Below the pieces are notes generated by a model, which was given only the letters and a program-made list of their open reading frames with translations, made no database searches and had not been told where the DNA came from. From contig NZ_BCWP01000030.1 in NCBI RefSeq assembly GCF_001592265.1, forward strand, positions 1 to 42,643: DNA of 42,643 bases, given 5' to 3'. This DNA comes from Curvibacter delicatus NBRC 14919. GTDB lineage: Bacteria; Pseudomonadota; Gammaproteobacteria; Burkholderiales; Burkholderiaceae_C. Position 1 is the stretch's first letter, and every line of letters begins with the position of its first letter. Position numbers and translations under genes: made by a program. This document shows, piece by piece, positions 6,345 through 21,034 of the stretch.

Positions 6345-7007
6345 TCACACCTCGCTCACGAACTGCTCGCGCGGGCGACGCACCTTCTTCAGGTTGACCA
6401 GCCAGTCCTTGTCTTCCTGGCGGTAGCCAATGGGCATGATGGCGACGCTGCGCAGACCGCGAGCACGCAACTTCAGGATCTCATCGAGCGCATCAGCATC
6501 AAAGCCTTCCATGGGCGTGGCATCCACCTCTTCGAAGGCGGCGGAAATCAGGGCCGCACTCAGGCCGATGTAGGCCTGCCGCGCCGCATGCTGGAAGTTC
6601 ACCTCGGCCTCGCGCGGCGGGTACAGCGCCAGCAGTTTCTGGCGGTAGTTCTCCCAGCCCTCGTTCTTGAAGCCACGCACTTCGTTGGTGTAGTCGAACA
6701 TCTGGTTGATGCGCTCGGGCGTGTAGTTGTCCCAGGCCGCGAACACCAGCAGGTGCGAGCCGTCGGTGATCTGCGCCTGGTTCCAGGCAATGGCCTTGAT
6801 CTGCTCGCGCACCGCGGCATTGCTGACGACGATGATCTCGAACGGCTGCAGGCCGCTGGAGGTCGGCGCCAGGCGGGCGGCCTCCAGAATGCGCTCCAGC
6901 TTGTCCTTCGGCACCGCCTTGGTGGGGTTCATGCTCTTGGTGGCGTAGCGCCACTGGAGTTGCTGGATCAGCGGTTGGGTGGAGGTGGATTGTTGGTTGG
7001 CACTCAT
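6345..7007 (-). CDS. Nitroreductase family FMN oxidoreductase (NfsB-like)
   Basis: A 220-residue nitroreductase. RYATKSMNPTKAV at residues 20-32 and APTSSGLQPFEIIVV at 47-61 are FMN-binding blocks of the NfsB/DrgA-type group, and the C-terminal GLRSVAIMPIGYRQEDKDW block matches the usual GY.ED end. It likely reduces nitroaromatics or quinones with NAD(P)H in the cytosol. Transcription is divergent from a LysR gene across 137 bp that contains a T-N11-A palindrome, the classic arrangement in which the LysR protein controls both itself and the enzyme. The physiological substrate is not evident. Confidence 0.88.
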   Translation of the reverse strand: MSANQQSTSTQPLIQQLQWRYATKSMNPTKAVPKDKLERILEAARLAPTSSGLQPFEIIVVSNAAVREQIKAIAWNQAQITDGSHLLVFAAWDNYTPERINQMFDYTNEVRGFKNEGWENYRQKLLALYPPREAEVNFQHAARQAYIGLSAALISAAFEEVDATPMEGFDADALDEILKLRARGLRSVAIMPIGYRQEDKDWLVNLKKVRRPREQFVSEV

Positions 7008-9088: not shown

Positions 9089-10303
9089 ATGACCACCACG
9101 CCCCCCACCCTCACGCCCGCAGCCCTGCAGGGCGTGCGCGTCATCGAGATGGGCCAGCTGATCGCGGGCCCGTTTGCCGGCAAGACGCTGGGCGAATTCG
9201 GTGCCGACGTCATCAAGATCGAGGCCCCCGGCGCCGGCGACCCGCTGCGCAACTGGCGCCTGATCCAGAAAGGCACCTCGGTCTGGTGGCAGGTGCAGTC
9301 GCGCAACAAGCGCTCCATCGCGCTGGACCTGCGCAGCCCCGAGGGCCAGGACATCGCCCGCCAGCTGATCGCCGAGGCCGACGTGCTGATCGAGAACTTC
9401 CGCCCCGGCACCCTGGAGGACTGGGGCATGGGCTGGGAAGAACTGCGAAAACTCAACCCCGGCCTGGTGATGCTGCGCATCAGCGGCTACGGCCAGACCG
9501 GCCCCTACCGTGACATGCCGGGCTTTGGTGTCATCGGCGAGGCCATGGGCGGCCTGCGCCACCTCACCGCCGAGCCGGGCCGTGTGCCGGTGCGCGTGGG
9601 CGTGTCCATCGGCGACACACTGGCCGCGCTGCACGGCGTCATCGGCGTGATGATGGCGCTCTACCACCGCAAGGTGAACGGCGGCGCCGGCCAGGTGATC
9701 GATGTGGCACTGCATGAAGCCGTGTTCAACGTGATGGAAAGTTTGATTCCCGAGTACAGCGCCTTCGGTGCCGTGCGCGAGGCCGCTGGCAGCGCGCTGC
9801 CTGGCATCGCCCCCAGCAACGCCTATCCCTGCCGCGACGGTTATGTGCTGGTGGCCGGCAACGGCGACAGCATCTTCAAGCGCCTGATGGAGACCATCGG
9901 CCGCAGCGACCTGGGCAACGCCCCGGATCTGGCAAACAACGCCGGGCGCGTCAAGCGCGTGGCCGAGATTGATGCTGCCATCGGCGCCTGGACGCAGACA
10001 CGCAGCATCCAGGAGGTGCTCGATGCGCTGAACGCGGCACGCGTGCCGGTGGGCCGCGTCTACACCGCCAAGGATATTTTTGAAGACCCGCACTACAAGG
10101 CGCGCGACATGATCCTGACGCAGCACACCCGTGATGGTGATGACATCGCCGTGCCGGGCATCGTGCCCAAGCTCTCGGCCACGCCGGGCCAGATCCGCAG
10201 CAGTGCACCCCATCTGGGCGACGACACCGACAGCGTGCTGCAGCAGATGGGCCTGTCGGCGGACAACATTGCAACCCTGCGTCAGAAAGGCATCGTGGCA
10301 TGA
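9089..10303 (+). CDS. CaiB/BaiF family CoA-transferase
   Basis: A 404-residue class III (formyl-CoA-transferase-like) enzyme. GVRVIEMGQLIAGPFAGKTL and GEFGADVIKIEAPGAGDPLR near residues 13-55, the NKRSIALDLRSPEGQ block and RISGYGQTGPYRDMPGF are standard for the family. It moves CoA between an acyl-CoA donor and a free carboxylic acid. The preceding AGAAGGAGA is a good ribosome site. It overlaps the lyase gene by 4 bases and shares an operon with a Bug receptor. That context suggests the transported acid is converted to its CoA thioester here and then cleaved by the lyase. Confidence 0.92.
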   Translation: MTTTPPTLTPAALQGVRVIEMGQLIAGPFAGKTLGEFGADVIKIEAPGAGDPLRNWRLIQKGTSVWWQVQSRNKRSIALDLRSPEGQDIARQLIAEADVLIENFRPGTLEDWGMGWEELRKLNPGLVMLRISGYGQTGPYRDMPGFGVIGEAMGGLRHLTAEPGRVPVRVGVSIGDTLAALHGVIGVMMALYHRKVNGGAGQVIDVALHEAVFNVMESLIPEYSAFGAVREAAGSALPGIAPSNAYPCRDGYVLVAGNGDSIFKRLMETIGRSDLGNAPDLANNAGRVKRVAEIDAAIGAWTQTRSIQEVLDALNAARVPVGRVYTAKDIFEDPHYKARDMILTQHTRDGDDIAVPGIVPKLSATPGQIRSSAPHLGDDTDSVLQQMGLSADNIATLRQKGIVA

Positions 10304-11301
10304 CCCTCAGCAAACTCCCCATCTGGTTCGGCAATGGCCGGCGCATCCACCTGCAGGAAGTCGGCACACGCGACGGCCTGCAGGCCGAGTGCACCTTTGT
10401 GCCGACCGAAGACAAGATCGCCCTCGTCAACGAACTCTCGGCAACCGGCCTGTCCAAGATCGAGGTCACCTCGTTCACCTCGCCCACCGCCATCCCGGCG
10501 CTGCGCGACGCGGAAATCGTCATGCGCGAGATCGAGCGCCAGCCCGGTGTGGTCTACAGCGCCCTGGTGCCGAACATGCGCGGCGCCGAGCGCGCCATCG
10601 ACGCCCGCGCGGATGAGCTCAACCTGGTGATGTCCGCCAGCGAAACACACAACCTGGCCAACCTGCGCATGACGCGCGAACAGTCGTTCGCGGCACTCTC
10701 ACAGGTGATCGGCCTGGCCCAGCGCGAAGGCGTGGCCGTGAACGTGTCGCTCTCGTGCAGCTTCGGCTGCCCGATGGAGGGCGATGTGTCCGAGTCCACC
10801 GTGCTGGCCTGGGCGCAGCGTTTTGCGGACCTCGGCGTGCACGGCCTCACGCTGTGCGACACCACCGGCATGGCCTACCCGACGCAGGTGGCCACGCTCA
10901 CGCGTGCCGCCCGCCTGCGCTGGCCCGGTACCGAACTCACCCTGCACTTTCACAACACGCGCGGCATGGGCCTGGCCAATGTGCTGGCCGGCATCGATGC
11001 CGGCGCCGACCGCTTCGACGCCTCGCTCGGCGGCATCGGCGGCTGTCCGTATGCGCCGGGCGCCACCGGCAATGTGTGCACCGAGGAGGTCGCCCACGCC
11101 CTGGCGCTGATGGACTTCGACACCGGCGTCGACCTGCCGCGCCTGATCGCTGCTTCGAAGCGCCTGCCCGCCCTGATCGGCCACGACACGCCGAGCCAGA
11201 TCACCAAGGCCGGCCAGCGCCTGGACCTGCACCCGGTGCCGGCCGATTTCAACGCCATCCGCGCGCGCGCGCTGGCGCGCAACGCCGAGCCCGTACACTG
11301 A
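10300..11301 (+). CDS. Hydroxymethylglutaryl-CoA lyase family enzyme
   Basis: A 333-residue lyase of the HMGL-like TIM-barrel group. The catalytic Arg-Asp pair is in EVGTRDGLQ (R24, D25), the metal histidines are in LHFHNTRGMGLAN, and GGIGGCPYAPGATGN carries the conserved active-site cysteine and metal-ligand asparagine. All key residues of true HMG-CoA lyases are present. Members cleave HMG-CoA to acetyl-CoA and acetoacetate, or act on related 3-hydroxy-3-methylacyl-CoAs such as citramalyl-CoA. Pairing with a CaiB transferase fits degradation of a branched hydroxydicarboxylic acid; which acid is not clear. Confidence 0.92.
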   Translation: MTLSKLPIWFGNGRRIHLQEVGTRDGLQAECTFVPTEDKIALVNELSATGLSKIEVTSFTSPTAIPALRDAEIVMREIERQPGVVYSALVPNMRGAERAIDARADELNLVMSASETHNLANLRMTREQSFAALSQVIGLAQREGVAVNVSLSCSFGCPMEGDVSESTVLAWAQRFADLGVHGLTLCDTTGMAYPTQVATLTRAARLRWPGTELTLHFHNTRGMGLANVLAGIDAGADRFDASLGGIGGCPYAPGATGNVCTEEVAHALALMDFDTGVDLPRLIAASKRLPALIGHDTPSQITKAGQRLDLHPVPADFNAIRARALARNAEPVH

Positions 11302-11325
11302 CTTTCATTCCACAAGGAGACTTTG

Positions 11326-12324
11326 ATGACCCCACAACAACATCGGCGCACCCTGACGCTGGCCGCCGCCGTCTTCACCACGCTGGCCACCTTCAGCGGC
11401 CTGGCCCAGGCGCAAGGCAGCGGCAACTACCCCAGCCGCCCGATCACCCTGGTGGTACCCACCGCCACCGGTGGCACCACCGACTTCTCCGCCCGCATGC
11501 TGGCGCAGCCGCTGGGCACCGCGCTCGGCCAGTCAGTGGTGGTGGACAACAAGGGCGGCGGCAACGGCTCCATTGCGGCCATCCAGGTCAAGCGTGCCGA
11601 GGCTGACGGCTACACGCTGCTGATGCAGTACTCGGGTTACCACGTCATCTCGCCGGCAGTCAGCAAAACGCCGCTGCAGTGGGATGCCAAGGACTTCCAG
11701 CCGGTGGCCAACGTGATCTCGGCGCCGCAGGTGATCGTGGTGCGCGCCAGCCTGCCGGTGAAGAACATGGCCGAACTGGTCGCCTACGCCAAGGCCAACC
11801 CGGGCAAGCTGAACTACGCCTCCAGCGGCAACGGTTCGCTGCAGCACGTCACCGGCGCCATGCTGGAACAGCAGGCCGGCATCGACATGATGCACGTGCC
11901 CTACAAGGGTACCGGTCCGGCCCTGCAGGACCTGCTGGGCAACCAGGTGGACCTGACCTTCGGCACCCCGCCGCCCTTCGTGCCGCACATCCAGAGCGGC
12001 AAGCTGCGCGCCCTGGCCGTCACCGGCAAGAAGCGCCTGCCCAGCCTGCCGGACGTGCCGACCACCGCCGAGGCCGGCTTCCCGAAGCTCGACGCCACCT
12101 CCTGGTTTGCCGTCTTCGCCCCGGCCAAGACGCCCAAGCCCATCATCGACAAGCTGACCGCCGAGATCGCCAAGATCACGGCCACACCGGCCTTCAAGCA
12201 GAAGGCGGTGGAACTCGGCGCCGAGGCCGACTACATGAGCCCGCAGCAGTTGGGGGACTTCACCAAGGCCGAACTGGCACGCTGGGCCCAGGTGGTCAAG
12301 ACCTCGAAGATCGAAGCAGACTGA
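11326..12324 (+). CDS. Bug/TctC-type periplasmic solute receptor
   Basis: A 332-residue tripartite-tricarboxylate-transporter receptor. The signal peptide ends about residue 29 (LAQA-QG), followed by the family start YPSRPITLVVPTATGGTTD. Other blocks are VVDNKGGGNGSIAAIQVKRA and the central LNYASSGNGSLQHVTGAMLE. These proteins bind carboxylated ligands in the periplasm. The ATG at 11326 has AAGGAG 8 bases upstream. There is no TctA/TctB membrane partner in the window, as is usual for the many orphan Bug genes of Burkholderiales. It is the last gene of the CaiB-HMGL operon, followed by a strong terminator. Confidence 0.92.
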   Translation: MTPQQHRRTLTLAAAVFTTLATFSGLAQAQGSGNYPSRPITLVVPTATGGTTDFSARMLAQPLGTALGQSVVVDNKGGGNGSIAAIQVKRAEADGYTLLMQYSGYHVISPAVSKTPLQWDAKDFQPVANVISAPQVIVVRASLPVKNMAELVAYAKANPGKLNYASSGNGSLQHVTGAMLEQQAGIDMMHVPYKGTGPALQDLLGNQVDLTFGTPPPFVPHIQSGKLRALAVTGKKRLPSLPDVPTTAEAGFPKLDATSWFAVFAPAKTPKPIIDKLTAEIAKITATPAFKQKAVELGAEADYMSPQQLGDFTKAELARWAQVVKTSKIEAD

Positions 12325-13572: not shown

Positions 13573-16131
13573 ATGCGCCAACTGCTGCTGACCTTCTCCT
13601 GGCAGGAACTGCGCCACCACCCCTGGCGCCATGCCGCCGCCGTGCTGGCGGTGATGCTGGGCGTGGCGCTGGCGTTCTCGGTCCACCTGATCAACGCCTC
13701 GGCACTGGACGAGTTCTCGCACGCGGTGCGCGCCGTGGGTGGCCAGCCCGACCTGACACTGCGGGCCGCACAAGGCAGTTTCGATGAGGCCCTCTATGGC
13801 CGCCTGGCCCGCCACCCGCAGGTGGCGCAGGCCAGCCCGGTGCTGGAGTTCAGCAGCCAGGCCCTCAGCGCCGGCGGCCAGCGCGTGCCGCTGCGCGTAC
13901 TGGGCATCGACGCCTTGCAGGTGGCCACCACCGCCCCCGACTTGCTGCCGCGGCCGGCCGCGGATGCAGACCGCCTGGCCCTGTTCGCACCCGCCACCGT
14001 CTTCCTCAACCCGGCGGCCCGGCAGCAGATCACCAGCCCCACGTTCTTCTTGCAAAGCGGCCTGCGGCTGGCCAGCGTGAAGGTGGCCGGCACCGTCAGC
14101 GCCAGCGGCCCGGCCCTGGCCGTGATGGACATTGCTGCCGCGCAGGAGTTGTTCGGCAAGCTGGGCCAGCTCAGCCGCCTCGACCTGCGCCTGCAACCCG
14201 GCGTGGACCGCAGCGCCTTCGTGCGCGCCCTGCAGGCCGCGCCCGACTGGCCCAGTGGCCTGAGCCTGAGCGAGCCCGGCGACGCAGCGCAACGCATCAG
14301 CCATCTGTCGCGTGCCTACCGCGTCAACCTCACGGTGCTGGCGCTGGTGGCGCTGTTCACTGGCGCCTTCCTGGTGTTCTCGGTGCTGGCCTTGAGCGTG
14401 GCCAAGCGCGCGCAGCAGTTGGCCCTGCTGGGCGTGCTGGGCCTCACCGGCCGCGAGCGGCTGGCCCTGGTGTTGTGGGAGTCGCTGGCATTGGGCACGC
14501 TCGGCAGCGCGGCCGGCATCGCCCTGGGCACGGCGCTGGCGGCATTGGCCCTGCACCTGCTGGGCGGCGACCTGGGCGGCGGCTTCTTCACCGGCGTGGC
14601 GCCCCGCCTGCAGTGGGACGGCGCGGCCGCGCTGGGTTACGGCCTGCTGGGTGTGCTGGCCGCTCTGGCCGGCGGCTGGTGGCCGGCGCGACAGGCGCAG
14701 CGGCTGCCGCTGGCGCAAACCCTCAAGGGGCTCGGCGCCACCGGAACGCACGCCTCACATCGCTGGATTGCTCTGCTTTTGATAGCTGCCGGCGCAATAT
14801 TGGCGAGGGCGCCAACCATTTTCGACATCCCACTGGCGGCCTATGTGTCAATCGCCCTGCTGCTGGTGGGCGGCATCATGGCCCTGCCCTGGCTCATCGC
14901 CGTGCTGCTGGACCGCCTTGCCCCGCTGGTGGCGCGGCACACGCTGCCGCTGCTGGCGGTGGAGCGCGCACGCCGCCAGCGCGAGAGCGCCGCGGTGGCG
15001 GTCAGCGGTGTGGTGGCCGCGCTCAGCCTGGCCGTTGCCCTGACCGTGATGGTGGCCAGCTTCCGCGATTCGGTGACGCAATGGCTCGCGCAGGTGCTGC
15101 CGGCCGACCTCTACGTGCGCAGCGCCAGCACCGTGGGTGCGGCCGACACGCAGTACTTCACGCCTGAATTCGTGCAAGCGGTGGCGCGGTTGCCCGGCGT
15201 GCAGCGCGTGCAGGCGCAACGCCAGCTGGCCTTGTTGCTGGCGCCGGAGCGCCCGGCGGTGGCGCTGCTGGCACGTGAACTCGACGACCCGGCGCGCGAC
15301 CTGCCGCTGCTGGGCGAACCACTGCCGGTGCCGGCGGGGCAGATCGGCATCTATGTCAGCGAAGCCATGCTCGACCTGCATGGCGCCCGGCCGGGCCAGG
15401 TGTTTGCCCCAATTTCACAGTCTTTCATGCCTCTGGCCCTTGACCGACGAGCGCCACCAGCTACGTTTTTTGTAGCAGGCGTGTGGCGCGACTATGCGCG
15501 CCAGAGCGGCACCATCGCCATGGCGCGGCGCAGCTACGAGCAATTGACCGGCGACACGCGCAGCAACGACCTCGCCTTGTGGCTTGATGCGGCGGTGCCA
15601 CTGGACGCGATGCAACAGGCCATCCGCACCCTGGCCGACCAGGCCAGCCCCGGCAGCGGCGCCCTGCTGGACTTCGGCAGCGCCAGCCAGATCCGCGCCA
15701 CCTCGCTGCGCATCTTCGACCGCAGCTTTGCCGTCACCTACTGGCTGCAGGCAGTGGCCATCGGCATCGGCCTGTTCGGCATCGCGGCCAGCTTCAGCGC
15801 GCAGGTGCTGGCGCGGCGCAAGGAGTTCGGCCTGCTGGTGCACCTGGGCTTGACGCGCCGGCAGATCCTGGCCGTGGTGGCCGGTGAAGGCGCGGCCTGG
15901 ACCGGCGTCGGCGCCATTGCCGGCCTCGGGCTCGGCCTGGCCGTGGCCGTGGTGCTGGTGCACGTGGTCAACCCGCAGAGCTTTCACTGGAGCATGGAGC
16001 TGATGCTGCCCTGGGGCCGTCTGCTGCTGCTGTGCGCCGCCGTGGTGCTGGCCGGCACGCTGACGGCCTGGCTCGCCGGCCGTGCCGCTGCCGGGCGCGA
16101 TGCAGTGCTGGCCGTGAAGGAAGACTGGTGA
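13573..16131 (+). CDS. Large FtsX-type ABC permease (YbbP/AttFG-like)
   Basis: An 852-residue inner-membrane protein. One N-terminal helix (~22-42) precedes a ~200-residue periplasmic domain. Further helices fall near 253-275, 290-330, 355-375 and 395-450, another near 478-498 starts the second periplasmic domain, and three more lie near 725-835. This is a fused double FtsX permease, about the size of E. coli YbbP or of AttF plus AttG joined. It needs an ATPase of the LolD class; none is adjacent, but one lies at 3044. The AttH-like partner lies at 30269. Two AT-richer repeats (14770 and 15412) are read in frame. The likely role is moving lipids or lipoproteins at the membrane; the substrate is unknown. 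Confidence 0.87.
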   Translation: MRQLLLTFSWQELRHHPWRHAAAVLAVMLGVALAFSVHLINASALDEFSHAVRAVGGQPDLTLRAAQGSFDEALYGRLARHPQVAQASPVLEFSSQALSAGGQRVPLRVLGIDALQVATTAPDLLPRPAADADRLALFAPATVFLNPAARQQITSPTFFLQSGLRLASVKVAGTVSASGPALAVMDIAAAQELFGKLGQLSRLDLRLQPGVDRSAFVRALQAAPDWPSGLSLSEPGDAAQRISHLSRAYRVNLTVLALVALFTGAFLVFSVLALSVAKRAQQLALLGVLGLTGRERLALVLWESLALGTLGSAAGIALGTALAALALHLLGGDLGGGFFTGVAPRLQWDGAAALGYGLLGVLAALAGGWWPARQAQRLPLAQTLKGLGATGTHASHRWIALLLIAAGAILARAPTIFDIPLAAYVSIALLLVGGIMALPWLIAVLLDRLAPLVARHTLPLLAVERARRQRESAAVAVSGVVAALSLAVALTVMVASFRDSVTQWLAQVLPADLYVRSASTVGAADTQYFTPEFVQAVARLPGVQRVQAQRQLALLLAPERPAVALLARELDDPARDLPLLGEPLPVPAGQIGIYVSEAMLDLHGARPGQVFAPISQSFMPLALDRRAPPATFFVAGVWRDYARQSGTIAMARRSYEQLTGDTRSNDLALWLDAAVPLDAMQQAIRTLADQASPGSGALLDFGSASQIRATSLRIFDRSFAVTYWLQAVAIGIGLFGIAASFSAQVLARRKEFGLLVHLGLTRRQILAVVAGEGAAWTGVGAIAGLGLGLAVAVVLVHVVNPQSFHWSMELMLPWGRLLLLCAAVVLAGTLTAWLAGRAAAGRDAVLAVKEDW
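14770..14823 (+). repeat. Intragenic family repeat, copy 2 (in permease gene)
   Basis: GCTTTTGATAGCTGCCGGCG and the following CAATATTGGCGAGGGCG form an AT-richer block of about 54 bp matching copy 1 in its TAGCTnnnGGCGC core. It encodes part of a membrane helix (residues ~400-416, ALLLIAAGAILA), so the insert was absorbed as hydrophobic sequence. Confidence 0.45.
15412..15480 (-). repeat. Intragenic family repeat, copy 3, inverted (in permease gene)
   Basis: On the minus strand this begins GCCTGCTACAAAAAACGTAG and continues CTGGTGGCGC, matching the core of copy 1 closely. It is about 69 bp, opposite in orientation to the other two copies, and in frame within the second periplasmic domain (residues ~614-636). 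Confidence 0.5.
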
Positions 16132-16192: not shown

Positions 16193-16268
16193 GGGTTCTT
16201 AGCTCAGTTGGTAGAGCAGCGGACTCTTAATCCGTAGGTCGAGTGTTCGAGTCACTCAGGACCCACCA
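16193..16268 (+). tRNA. tRNA-Lys (anticodon CUU)
   Basis: 76 bases with encoded CCA. The acceptor stem GGGTTCT/AGGACCC (one T-G pair), D-arm GCTC/GAGC, anticodon stem GCGGA/TCCGT with loop CTCTTAA, and T-arm GAGTG/CACTC all pair. The loop places CTT at 34-36, so it reads AAG lysine codons. It is transcribed from its own extended -10 promoter, and a GAAA-loop terminator follows 21 bases after the CCA. Confidence 0.97.
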
Positions 16269-16283
16269 GAAATTAAGAATAGA

Positions 16284-16329
16284 AATCAAGGACTTGACCG
16301 AAAGGTCAGGTCCTTTTTCTTTGCCCGGC
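16284..16329 (+). repeat. Left 46-bp direct repeat (candidate attL)
   Basis: It begins AATCAAGGACTTGACC and ends TTTGCCCGGC, identical over 46 bp to 18015-18060. The match stops abruptly at both ends (A versus C before; C versus G after). It starts 15 bases after the tRNA CCA. Confidence 0.9.
16290..16323 (+). terminator. tRNA-Lys terminator (left copy)
   Basis: GGACTTGACC-GAAA-GGTCAGGTCC is a 10-bp stem with one T-G pair and a stable GNRA tetraloop, followed by TTTTTCTTT. It is a standard intrinsic terminator for the tRNA and lies wholly inside the left repeat. Confidence 0.9.
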
Positions 16330-16694
16330 CGTGACAAGAACGTGACGATATAGCCCACATTTTCAGCACGTTGCCGCTCTATTCTCATGGCGGCATCAGC
16401 TAAATGACTGGTTGCGTACTTGGCGTATCCATCGTCAGACTCTGTTGCTTGAGCCCTCATTCCCTCTCGGGAACGATCCTTGGAATCAAGGTGACTGCAA
16501 TTGCGTGGTCGAGCAACTCCATTTTTAGTCCCCTCCTTGTCGAAAACTTCATTCTGTAAAAAGTAAGCACTAAACACACCTCGAATCCAACAACCTGGGA
16601 AACGGGAAGAAGCCCAAGGTGCTGGCTCCGTTGGTCTAAGATGCAATTAGCAGTACATAGAGCCTTCCTTCATACAAGACTTGAAGGGTTTTTT

Positions 16695-17900
16695 ATGAAC
16701 AAGCCCATTCGTGTCTACCTAGACAGTAGCGACTTTTCCAGCCTGTCTAACTCCACGGACTCCGCCACTTGGGGTGAAACAACTAGCCAGCTTCAAGAGT
16801 GGGCTGATTCTGGTGTCGTTCAGTTTCTTTTTTCTGCTGTCCATCTCACAGAAATGGCACCGCTAGAGGCCAAGTTCACCCCGGCAGCGGCAGCAAGGGC
16901 AGATCTTGTTGTCCGTCTATGTGGACGCAATGCCCTCATATCTTTTGATCGCCTTGCGGAGTTAGAGCTCAGGAACTTAATTGACCCTCTCTCCTCATTG
17001 CCATCCGTAGTCTCTAGCGAAGCGGAATGGTATCCAAAGTGGGGGAACCTGATTTCTCCCGTGCAATGGGCCGAAACAGTCAACCAGGTGGATCTCACCG
17101 GCAAAGAGCAGGGTTTGAACAGAGAACAACGCCGCAGCCTGAAGCGACAGATGTTCAAGCGCGGGCTCCCCAAGAAAGCCACCCGTGAATTATTGTTCTC
17201 CAATGAAGAAAATATCGATTACTCAGATCTGCTGAAGCTTTATCCGATGCGTCTTCAAGATGCCCAGGTACTAGGTAGATACATGATTGGAAAGGCCTCT
17301 TCGGAGGAGGCCAATGCTGCGTTTCTAGAGAGTCTGCGTGACCCCCGTTGGATGATGCGGTGGTTTGCAGAACATCATGACAAGATGAGCCCTTTCATCT
17401 TTTGGCTTAGAAAGCCCGCTCAAGACCTTAATGAGGCAGTGAAGTCCATTGCAAACAAATCGCAGGAATTGCACAGACTTCAATCAACATTAGGACCAAA
17501 TTTCAAGCCAGATGTTCTCACGTCACAGTGGTGGACTAGTACCCAAGAAGAAATGCTGCAAAACTTCGCCAACAGAATGATCCGCGTTCTACTTCAGGAC
17601 ACGGAGACCACAGTAACTAGTCAGCAAGTTCGCGCACATTGTCCAGGCATAACGTCGTTTCTGCTTTCGGCAGTTTCTTTCGCCAAGGACTCCGTAACTG
17701 AAAACCCCCGTCAGCCAAAGGAGAGCGACTTCGCTGATGTGCTACATGCTATGTACGCGCCGTACGTTGATGTGTATAGGACTGATTCGTACATGGCAAA
17801 TCATGTTCGACGTCAGGTGGAGACTTATCCAACAACCGTTGTTCCAAAGTTGTCGCTATTAGTGCCCCTGCTTAGGGATAAGCTGGCTCGCCTAACTTAG
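16695..17900 (+). CDS. PIN-like domain protein, island cargo
   Basis: A 401-residue protein I do not recognise as a named family. The first strand VYLDSSDFSSLS (D10, D13), then AVHLTEMAPLE (E53, E58), then near the C-terminus SDFADVLHAMYAPYVDVYRT followed by D364 give the acidic layout of PIN ribonucleases. However, about 290 residues separate the second and third acidic motifs, where classic PIN domains have ~50. The middle is helical and charged. GAAGGG before the ATG at 16695 decides the start; the frame is open 18 codons earlier. Base and codon use are AT-richer than the neighbours, fitting transfer. No antitoxin gene is adjacent, so it is not a typical VapBC pair. A nuclease role, perhaps in phage defence, is inference. 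Confidence 0.7.
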   Translation: MNKPIRVYLDSSDFSSLSNSTDSATWGETTSQLQEWADSGVVQFLFSAVHLTEMAPLEAKFTPAAAARADLVVRLCGRNALISFDRLAELELRNLIDPLSSLPSVVSSEAEWYPKWGNLISPVQWAETVNQVDLTGKEQGLNREQRRSLKRQMFKRGLPKKATRELLFSNEENIDYSDLLKLYPMRLQDAQVLGRYMIGKASSEEANAAFLESLRDPRWMMRWFAEHHDKMSPFIFWLRKPAQDLNEAVKSIANKSQELHRLQSTLGPNFKPDVLTSQWWTSTQEEMLQNFANRMIRVLLQDTETTVTSQQVRAHCPGITSFLLSAVSFAKDSVTENPRQPKESDFADVLHAMYAPYVDVYRTDSYMANHVRRQVETYPTTVVPKLSLLVPLLRDKLARLT

Positions 17901-18014
17901 CTCAAGCTTTTGCTGAGAGCCATTCCTTGGTCACACTATACGCAAAAGGCACCGACTACAACCCAGTACCGCGCATCAGACCAAGTCGATGCCCACGGAG
18001 ACAGCAGTAGCTCC

Positions 18015-18060
18015 AATCAAGGACTTGACCGAAAGGTCAGGTCCTTTTTCTTTGCCCGGC
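18015..18060 (+). repeat. Right 46-bp direct repeat (candidate attR)
   Basis: Identical over 46 bp to 16284-16329. It closes the AT-richer block and ends 43 bases before the GGDEF-EAL start codon. The 114 bases between the PIN-like stop and this repeat hold no gene that I can see. Confidence 0.9.
18021..18054 (+). terminator. Duplicated tRNA-type terminator (right copy)
   Basis: The same GAAA-loop hairpin and T-tract as after the tRNA. Here it ends transcripts of the PIN-like gene and insulates the downstream GGDEF-EAL gene from the island. Confidence 0.85.
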
Positions 18061-18103: not shown

Positions 18104-21034
18104 ATGTCAAAGGGCGAAACCACCTCCAACCGTGCGCTGCTGATTCCCGGCATTTTTCTGCTCCTGGGTTTGACGCTGACCTACTTTCTGCAGGGCAGCG
18201 CCCGCGAGGCAGCGCGGGAAACGCTGCACGACGAGTTCAAATTCCGTGTCAGCGAAGTCCTCGGAAACATTGACCGGCGTCTGCAGAGCTACGAACAGAT
18301 CCTCGAGAGTACCGCCGGTCTGTTCGCCGCATCAGACCAGGTGGCGCACGGCGACTTCGTTGAATACGTTCACGCACTGAGGCTGGAAGGGAAATACCCA
18401 GGCATTCAGGGTGTCGGGTTTGCCAAGCTCGTGCCGCACAAGGACAAAACCAGGCACATCAGCGAGATGCGGGCCAGCGGCCGGGCGGACTACGACATCC
18501 GACCGGCAGGGCAGCGCGATGTCTACACCCCCATCGTTTACCTGGAGCCGTCCACCTCGCGCAACCATCGCGCCATCGGGTACGACATGTATTCCGAGCC
18601 GGTGCGCCGTGCCGCGCTGGAACAAGCACGGGATGAAGAAAAAACCAGAATCAGCGGCAAGGTGCGGCTGGTGCAGGAAACCGACCAGGATCTGCAAGCT
18701 GGCTTTCTGATGTACCTGCCGGTTTATCAGCGCAAGACCACGCATCAAACCCTCGAAGAGCGCCGCACAAACCTGATCGGCTGGGTCTACGCGCCCTTCC
18801 GCATGAATGACCTGATGGCAGGCATCCTGGGCGAACGTTTTGGTGAAGCCAACGCGGTGCTGAACCTTGAAATCTTTGATGGCGACTCGCTCCAGGCCAG
18901 CCAGCAGATGTTCAACTCGAACGGCCAAGGCCATGAAAACGCCCAATTTCATGCCGTCCAGCGCATCGCGCTGTTTGGGCACCAATGGACCGTGGTCATC
19001 GACTCGCTTGCCCCTTTCGAGGCCCGGATGCGGAGCGACAAGGCCAACATCATTGCCTTGGCCGGCACCATTGCCAGCCTGCTGCTGGCCTTGGTGGGTT
19101 GGCTGCTTGCAACGGCGCGGGCACGCGCGCTGGCCATCGCGCACCGGATGACCGAGGAGTTGCAGCAAAGCGAAGCCGCACAAAAGCGGCTCAATCGCGC
19201 CCTGCGTCTGCTCAGTGACTGCAACATGGCCTTGGTGCACGCGGAAGAAGAATATAAGCTGCTGTCCGAGATTTTCCGCCTGTGTGTCGAGCGCGGTGGC
19301 TACCTCATGGCCTGGGTTGGTTACGCGGAGCAGGATGCCCAGAAGAGCGTGCGGCCGATCGCGCAGTCCGGCTACGAAAGCGGCTACCTGGAAAAGATCA
19401 ACATCTCCTGGGCCGACGACGAACACGGACGGGGCCCGACAGGCACCGCCATTCGCAGCGGGCGGCCGAATGTCAACCAGAACATCCTGACCAACCCGGC
19501 CATGGCGCCGTGGCGCGAAGCAGCCAGCCAGCGCGGCTATCAGTCCAGCGTGGCACTGCCCCTGATCTGCGAGGCCCGGGTGCTGGGCGCCCTCAACGTC
19601 TATGCCCATGACCCGGGGGCTTTCGACCCCGAAGAACTGCACCTGCTGGAGGAGCTGGCGAATGATCTGGCCTACGGCATCGTGGCCTTGCGCACCCGCG
19701 AGGAACACGCCGCCGCCAAGGACCGCCTCACGTTCCTGGACCACTTCGACCCCCTGACCCACCTGCCCAATCGCCTGCTGCTGCGCGACCGCTTCGAGCG
19801 TGCCGCGCTGAGCGCCAAGAGCGAGCAAAAGACCGTTTGTCTGTTGTACCTCGACCTGGACCAGTTCAAGCAGGTCAACGACAGCCTGGGTTATGCGGTG
19901 GGCGACCGGGTGCTGGTCGGCGTCGTGGAGCGGTTGCGTCAGTGCGTCCCTCCGGCTGCCACCATCAGCCGCCTGAGCGGAGACGAGTTCGTCGTGCTGC
20001 TGACGGGTAACTACGATGCCACCGGCATTGCAGTTGTCGCCAACACCATCCGTGATGTCTTTGCCGAGCCTCTGGCCATTGACACGCATGTGCTGAACCT
20101 GTCCTTCTCCATCGGCATCAGCCTGTACCCGAACGATGGCGAGGATTTCGACACCCTGCTCAAGCACGCCCACACGGCCATTGGCAGCGCCAAGGAGGCC
20201 GGGCGCAATACCTATCGCTTCTTCACGCGCGAAATGAATGCGGGCCTGGCTGAGCAGATCCGCCTCACCGGCGGCCTCAGCAACGCTGTTCGCCATGGCG
20301 AGTTCCTGCTCCACTACCAACCCCAGATCGACATTCAAAGCGGCCGGATCACCGGCGCCGAGGCCCTGGTACGCTGGCAACACCCGACCGACGGACTGGT
20401 GCCGCCGGGCAAGTTCATCAGCCTGGCGGAACGCAGCGGCCACATCGTGCAGATTGGCGAATGGGTGCTGAATGAAACCTGCCGCCAGGGCAAGCTCTGG
20501 ATGGACCGGTACCCGCAGGCGCCGGTGGTGGCCGTCAACCTTTCAGCCTTGCAGTTCAAGCGCGGCAATGTACTGGAGATGGTGAGCAAAGCGCTCACCA
20601 CGTCCGGCTTGCGCCCGGACCGCCTGGAGCTGGAGCTGACCGAATCCATCCTGCTGCAGGATGTGGAGGCCACCATGAAAACCTTGCAAGGCCTGAAGGC
20701 CTTGGGCGTCAAGCTGTCCATCGATGATTTCGGCACCGGCTATTCCAGCCTGTCCTACCTCAAGCAGCTGGCCATCGACAAGCTCAAGATCGACCAATCG
20801 TTCGTGGGAGACATGCTGACCGATGAAGACGGCGCCTCGATCGTCAAGGCCATCATCCAGCTGGGGCATACCCTGCAACTGACGGTCATCGCCGAGGGCG
20901 TGGAGACCGATGCCCAACTGGCGTTCCTCAACACCGCAGGCTGTGATGAAGCGCAAGGTTATCTGTTCAGCCGCCCTGTCCCGGCCGATCAGTTTGCCAA
21001 GCTGCTGGAGAAGAAAGAAGCCGAGCGGGCTTGA
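18104..21034 (+). CDS. CHASE-GAF-GGDEF-EAL cyclic-di-GMP enzyme
   Basis: A 976-residue membrane sensor. One N-terminal helix (~11-29), a periplasmic CHASE-type domain (~70-290, with LEGKYPGIQGVGFAKLVP) and a second helix (~308-330) precede a GAF domain (~365-525). GGDEF (~535-690) has the variant SGDEF at 625-629. EAL (~710-960) has EALVRW at 753, ELTES, DDFGTGYSSLSYLK and EGVETDAQ. The EAL residues for c-di-GMP hydrolysis look complete. The SGDEF form still keeps the two acidic residues, so cyclase activity is possible. The start has no good ribosome site, and TGCTAAAGT at 18089-18097 could give a nearly leaderless transcript. It lies directly after the island. Confidence 0.9.
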   Translation: MSKGETTSNRALLIPGIFLLLGLTLTYFLQGSAREAARETLHDEFKFRVSEVLGNIDRRLQSYEQILESTAGLFAASDQVAHGDFVEYVHALRLEGKYPGIQGVGFAKLVPHKDKTRHISEMRASGRADYDIRPAGQRDVYTPIVYLEPSTSRNHRAIGYDMYSEPVRRAALEQARDEEKTRISGKVRLVQETDQDLQAGFLMYLPVYQRKTTHQTLEERRTNLIGWVYAPFRMNDLMAGILGERFGEANAVLNLEIFDGDSLQASQQMFNSNGQGHENAQFHAVQRIALFGHQWTVVIDSLAPFEARMRSDKANIIALAGTIASLLLALVGWLLATARARALAIAHRMTEELQQSEAAQKRLNRALRLLSDCNMALVHAEEEYKLLSEIFRLCVERGGYLMAWVGYAEQDAQKSVRPIAQSGYESGYLEKINISWADDEHGRGPTGTAIRSGRPNVNQNILTNPAMAPWREAASQRGYQSSVALPLICEARVLGALNVYAHDPGAFDPEELHLLEELANDLAYGIVALRTREEHAAAKDRLTFLDHFDPLTHLPNRLLLRDRFERAALSAKSEQKTVCLLYLDLDQFKQVNDSLGYAVGDRVLVGVVERLRQCVPPAATISRLSGDEFVVLLTGNYDATGIAVVANTIRDVFAEPLAIDTHVLNLSFSIGISLYPNDGEDFDTLLKHAHTAIGSAKEAGRNTYRFFTREMNAGLAEQIRLTGGLSNAVRHGEFLLHYQPQIDIQSGRITGAEALVRWQHPTDGLVPPGKFISLAERSGHIVQIGEWVLNETCRQGKLWMDRYPQAPVVAVNLSALQFKRGNVLEMVSKALTTSGLRPDRLELELTESILLQDVEATMKTLQGLKALGVKLSIDDFGTGYSSLSYLKQLAIDKLKIDQSFVGDMLTDEDGASIVKAIIQLGHTLQLTVIAEGVETDAQLAFLNTAGCDEAQGYLFSRPVPADQFAKLLEKKEAERA

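Follow-up and report, generated by a model that had tools for sequence, protein, structure and literature searches.

We interpret the DNA between two identical 46-bp repeats beside a tRNA-Lys(CUU) gene (segment 16330-18014 of the window, by which we mean the whole stretch of 42,643 bp that was analysed) as the relic of a tRNA island, a reading to which we give a probability of about 0.86. The repeats would be the rest of a longer duplication and not a new landing site. The feature is real but of an ordinary kind, a tRNA island that has decayed and kept a single gene. In favour of a relic, the left end of the segment holds an integrase stub related to the intact enzyme of a relative (G025), and the remaining gene, which encodes a PIN-like protein, is sporadic. 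Against it, the right side of the segment is without a surviving tRNA fragment, and the left tail of the window resembles the right tail of a second relative (G003) more than the left tails of G025 and G003.

Two copies of a tRNA terminator bound the segment

An earlier note on this DNA had reported two identical 46-bp copies with the complete tRNA-Lys terminator hairpin, a repeat start 15 bases after the CCA, and a drop in base composition between the copies. All three points proved exact. The direct copies at 16284-16329 and 18015-18060 are 100% identical. No other exact direct repeat of 46 occurs in the window, and 20 mononucleotide shuffles of the window gave exact repeats of at most 17; the identity of the two copies is far above the chance expectation. 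Each copy comprises a full terminator hairpin with a 12-bp stem, a GAAA loop and a T-rich tail, and is predicted to fold with -20.4 kcal/mol (z -4.17, none of 200 shuffles as good). The left copy begins 15 bases past the CCA of the intact tRNA-Lys gene, which lies at this one boundary of the segment (16193-16268), and its tail after the hairpin, TTTGCCCGGC, is also the tail of the right copy. The G+C content between the copies is 0.497 versus 0.643 for the whole window. Between the copies a single long forward ORF, 16641-17900 with a further ATG inside it at 16695, encodes the PIN-like protein. The earlier note missed the integrase stub on the minus strand. The features of the region are:

13573-16131, plus strand: FtsX/MacB-type permease gene (Pfam), the left host flank; conserved in three genus genomes (G024, G003 and G025) at 88-90% DNA identity
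16193-16268, plus strand: intact tRNA-Lys (CUU), the integration target (ARAGORN, tRNA-Lys(CTT))
16224-16329, plus strand: putative full left attachment core, from the anticodon loop (tRNA position 32) to the terminator tail, as judged from the left and right duplications in G025 and G003 and from loci L110, L111 and L113
16284-16329, plus strand: left copy of 46 bp, with the hairpin and tail of the tRNA terminator (repeat comparison, folding)
16290-16442, minus strand: C-terminal stub of a tyrosine integrase, remainder of the gene missing (tblastn; DNA identity to G025)
16443-16694, no strand assigned: low-G+C DNA between integrase stub and cargo gene; no blastn match in the relatives' loci compared
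16695-17900, plus strand: gene for the PIN-like protein, 401 aa, with a longer in-frame start at 16641 (ORF, homologues, conserved acidic residues, AlphaFold2 model)
17901-18014, no strand assigned: DNA between the PIN-like gene and the right copy; no blastn match for 17890-18014 in the relatives' loci compared
18015-18060, plus strand: right 46-bp copy, read as the leftover terminator end of the right attachment repeat (repeat comparison, folding)
18104-21034, plus strand: CHASE-GAF-GGDEF-EAL gene (Pfam), the right host flank; orthologue at the right junction in G024 and G003

A displaced tRNA 3' fragment was not found at the far (right) boundary of the window's segment. In G025 and G003 the displaced 3' half of the tRNA occupies the place equivalent to 17901-18014, immediately left of the terminator.

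A truncated integrase at the left end

The first 110 bp or so inside the left copy are filled by the minus-strand end of a tyrosine integrase gene, roughly 46 C-terminal codons, which can be recognised only through comparison with G025. A tblastn search with the G025 integrase against the whole window aligned 51 columns at 76% identity (E 1.5e-16, 16290-16442), and against the 1.8-kb piece 46 aa at 16314-16451 with 78% identity (E 3.5e-16). The convincing homology is that of the stub DNA, which is 94.9% identical to G025 over 98 bp (16330-16427) and stops upstream of it. The match to the final residues of the enzyme lies in another frame (16289-16321), and the stub is thus frame-shifted relative to G025. 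The minus-strand ORF 16227-16646 has no match in Pfam or PHROGs, and in NCBIfam two weak, unrelated ones. A PF00589 search of the window's own genome gave 17 matches, none of them on the contig with the window. With a truncated integrase, the segment is not expected to be mobile on its own, the 17 other integrase-family matches of the genome being kept in mind.

In the intact G025 integrase, the last codons (KKKDLTFRSSP) run antisense through the tRNA terminator (L034:14419-14454). One could imagine an attachment core that starts at the anticodon loop and includes the entire terminator, with the last integrase codons antisense in it, so that every integration leaves a terminator on both sides, the right one being selectively kept as an insulator of the GGDEF-EAL gene after loss of the tRNA fragment and the integrase. 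We consider this extension rather unlikely.

Relatives at the same tRNA-Lys(CUU)

The genus sample consists of 26 genomes including the window's own (G000), of which 15 have a completeness of 90% or more and a contamination of 5% or less. Three of the 26 (G024, G003 and G025) have the left flank of the window, at 88-92% identity. G025 (locus L034), a member of the same genus, carries a 7.5-kb island at the same tRNA-Lys(CUU). Its intact tyrosine integrase (360 aa, Pfam Phage_integrase E 6.1e-34) is encoded by a gene that converges on this tRNA, and the island further encodes a protein with an HTH_17 match just under the cut-off and other genes. This island, beside the tRNA-Lys and with an integrase of its own, also holds a KwaA/KwaB pair of the Kiwa defence system (L034:7295-8808). 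In G025 the alignment of the left with the right copy begins at tRNA position 31 and extends across the terminator tail (109 columns); in G003 it has the same start, also takes in the tail and spans 103 columns. The displaced tRNA half of G003 shows 6 mismatches over 46 bp and the 57 bp that follow show 1, which suggests that the tRNA part of the right copy decays first. The G003 contigs break between the integrase stub and the right copy, at ends that presumably belong to an insertion sequence, and the site is occupied as far as the contig ends show.

G024 has the same left junction as the window, with 54 bp identical (54 of 147 query bases matched) including 8 bp of island sequence beyond the junction. 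In place of the window's cargo it contains a gene of 405 aa, which may be host DNA rather than island cargo because its relatives occur in 24 of the 26 genus genomes. The right remnant of G024 is cut inside the hairpin, at a breakpoint different from that of the window. Its predicted fold is weak (-8.8 kcal/mol, z -1.39; 17 of 200 shuffles reached as good a fold). That one left junction is combined with two different right breakpoints points to deletion and not to a fixed site of attachment. The right boundaries in G024, G003 and G025 are all unlike that of the window, and the DNA at the site differs among the window, G024, G025 and, as far as contig ends show, G003.

None of the 26 genus genomes shows an empty site with one 46-bp copy between both flanks. 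The earlier note had named a lack of empty sites as a finding that would refute it, and as far as these genomes can be searched there are none: the right-flank gene (85-89% identical) lies beside the site only in the window's genome, G024 and G003, and all three are occupied. Likewise no intermediate between the full island and the window's relic was found. The tRNA-Lys(CUU) loci L037-L046, from 10 of the 22 other genus genomes, have neither an integrase relative (E <= 1e-3) nor a match to one of the flank genes (E <= 1e-20) on the pieces examined and are thus single-copy sites elsewhere, not orthologous empty sites.

The tails after the hairpin are the same on the left and right in the window and in G025, and differ in G003. 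In G005 and G009, which show no island, the tRNA is followed by similar hairpins, and the window's terminator may therefore be host-derived on both sides. The likeness of the window's left tail to right tails needs either an incoming site with a different tail or gene conversion; the pattern of tails and hairpins would be accounted for by gene conversion between the copies or by locally derived incoming sites. In the G025 attachment copies (left L034:14415-14547, right 6823-6926) the hairpin flanks agree and the hairpins differ.

The PIN-like gene

The PIN-like gene is present in one of the 26 genus genomes, the window's own, and in 6 of 399 family genomes including this one; it is not a core gene of all close relatives, a possibility that the earlier note had raised against an island. 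Homologues were found at 35 loci in a species-level genome collection, at least two of which (L129, L152) seem to stem from the genomes G119 and G149, and on 6 viral contigs. The plasmid and phage collections gave no match to the protein. A plasmid DNA search matched 320 records, the best 20 of which cover only query positions within 39-139, that is the tRNA region. At L120 (G394, about 9181-11569) the homologue appears split, with two matches about 1.2 kb apart, one of them with an internal stop.

In an alignment of 31 sequences, which leaves 11 of the 41 fetched loci aside, D10, D13, E53 and D348 are invariant (31/31) and D364 is found in 30 of 31. The AlphaFold2 model of the window's protein has a mean pLDDT of 87.7. 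Neither Pfam nor NCBIfam gave a match for this protein, and Foldseek with the model returned nothing at E <= 0.001 (best E 0.67 in the PDB and 1.7 in BFVD). Among the 31 homologues one has a weak PIN_12 match (E 0.0024), and other members match unrelated families equally weakly. The pattern of Asp and Glu residues together with the order of strands and helices would, we assume, agree with a PIN core into which a long helical stretch is inserted. The label "PIN-like" therefore rests on the residue pattern, on what is known of the fold and on the one weak PIN_12 match. The window's protein shares conserved acidic residues with PIN-domain nucleases; no match in Pfam, or in fold at E <= 0.001, was found for it.

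PADLOC gave no match for the protein and two weak single-member matches across the 31 homologues. No partner gene recurs in more than 3 of the 41 loci (ORFs of at least 80 aa within 6 kb). At L123 a type I restriction gene lies 206 bp from the homologue, and by clustering its near-identical neighbour L124 has one as well. In Pseudomonas sp. PSB18 (L131:5327-16000) the homologue is located between a Kiwa pair (about 3 kb away) and a type I restriction gene (1.7 kb). These neighbours at L123, L124 and L131, picked by eye from ORF lists and without a control, only hint at a defence role. We tentatively predict a nuclease-type defence function for the PIN-like gene, and its small and sporadic family is a candidate of interest for phage defence.

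The gene might also have come separately, by an illegitimate or homologous event, to a site that had already decayed, with gene conversion keeping the terminator copies alike, and would then never have been cargo of an integrase island. The identical tails of the two copies in the window and in G025 would fit this course of events, as would the different DNA at the site in the four genomes and the surroundings of the homologues in the 5 other family genomes, in none of which a Phage_integrase match lies within 20 kb. These homologues, none of whose loci holds a tRNA either, also count against the gene as a remnant of a tRNA island. However, the surroundings of the gene in the window gave no recognisable sign of another mobile element, and the original insertion at the anticodon loop would still be required, so that only the last step changes. 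We regard a separate arrival as improbable.

Site of recombination and origin of the segment

In the relatives the duplications begin within the tRNA. Seven further loci of the integrase family were aligned to their own downstream DNA. In three of them the duplicate starts at tRNA position 32 (L110, tRNA-Asn; L111, tRNA-Lys; L113, tRNA-Thr), and the close identity stops at or near the tRNA 3' end. The other four (L105, L106, L108, L114) show no duplicate within the DNA stretches compared; the genome of L106 has a tRNA-Lys fragment from position 28 on another contig (L107). Three more loci outside this alignment (L109, L112, L115) have weaker, short matches to tRNA positions 28-80. Because the duplicates start at position 31 in G025 and G003 or at position 32 in L110, L111 and L113, strand exchange most likely occurs at the anticodon loop, in agreement with the anticodon-centred class of Islander.

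The earlier note had seen a minimal element that carries one gene and uses the 46 bp of the tRNA terminator as its true attachment site for site-specific recombination; the window's repeat does cover the terminator without any tRNA sequence, and its left and right tails are identical, but the duplicates of the integrase family to which the adjoining stub belongs start, where found, at the anticodon loop, G024 has the same left junction with its right breakpoint elsewhere and a damaged hairpin, and no second insertion with the window's boundaries was seen among the 26 genus genomes, which makes this the least probable of the explanations considered. Its description of accessory, probably laterally acquired DNA beside a tRNA and bounded by a duplication stands. 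The terminator as attachment site does not, given the truncated integrase at the left end and the intact relative G025 that duplicates the tRNA from the anticodon loop, and the different right breakpoint of G024 points to deletion. A purpose-built carrier of one gene is not supported either. A new attachment mode is thus not needed, and the relatives argue against it. In the titles and abstract openings that were searched, terminator attachment sites are not described, which we do not take as their absence from the literature.

For the decayed island that we favour, the following course can be proposed from the sequence comparisons. An island would have entered the tRNA-Lys(CUU) gene with the help of a tyrosine integrase that recombines at the anticodon loop. 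This would have rebuilt the tRNA on the left and displaced its 3' half with the terminator to the right, an arrangement that is seen in G025 and G003 and that we infer for the window. Deletions would then have removed the integrase except for its last 46 or so codons, the island interior and the displaced tRNA half, the last of these losses being deduced since no tRNA fragment survives there. This would leave the left junction, a single accessory PIN-like gene and, of the right copy, the terminator end with its 46 identical bp that are predicted to fold.

Comparison with known tRNA islands

An apparently new attachment site can arise by decay of an ordinary tRNA island: the tRNA half, which has no function, is lost, the terminator stays, and a misleading repeat is the result. 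As described for Islander, this method requires an integrase gene and a tRNA fragment and rejects candidates below 2 kb (PMC4383910). Methods with such requirements, Islander as it is described there among them, are expected to miss relics of this kind.

In the Islander account, 2083 of 3919 islands are centred on the anticodon (site class A) (PMC4383910). These have an intact tRNA at one end, an adjoining tyrosine integrase and a displaced copy at the other end, and the same is found in the relatives of the window. In contrast, the integrase of the window is a stub, the displaced tRNA half is gone, and only the terminator part behind the tRNA is duplicated. Because the displaced tRNA fragment is absent here and present in G025 and G003, the segment is, as judged from these alignments, a relic of the anticodon-loop class and not an intact member. 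Another close comparison is the G025 island, which has the left junction and the integrase C-terminus in common with the window (94.9% DNA identity over 98 bp). Where G025 carries a full integrase, the near-cut-off HTH_17 protein, the Kiwa pair and other genes, the window carries the PIN-like gene.
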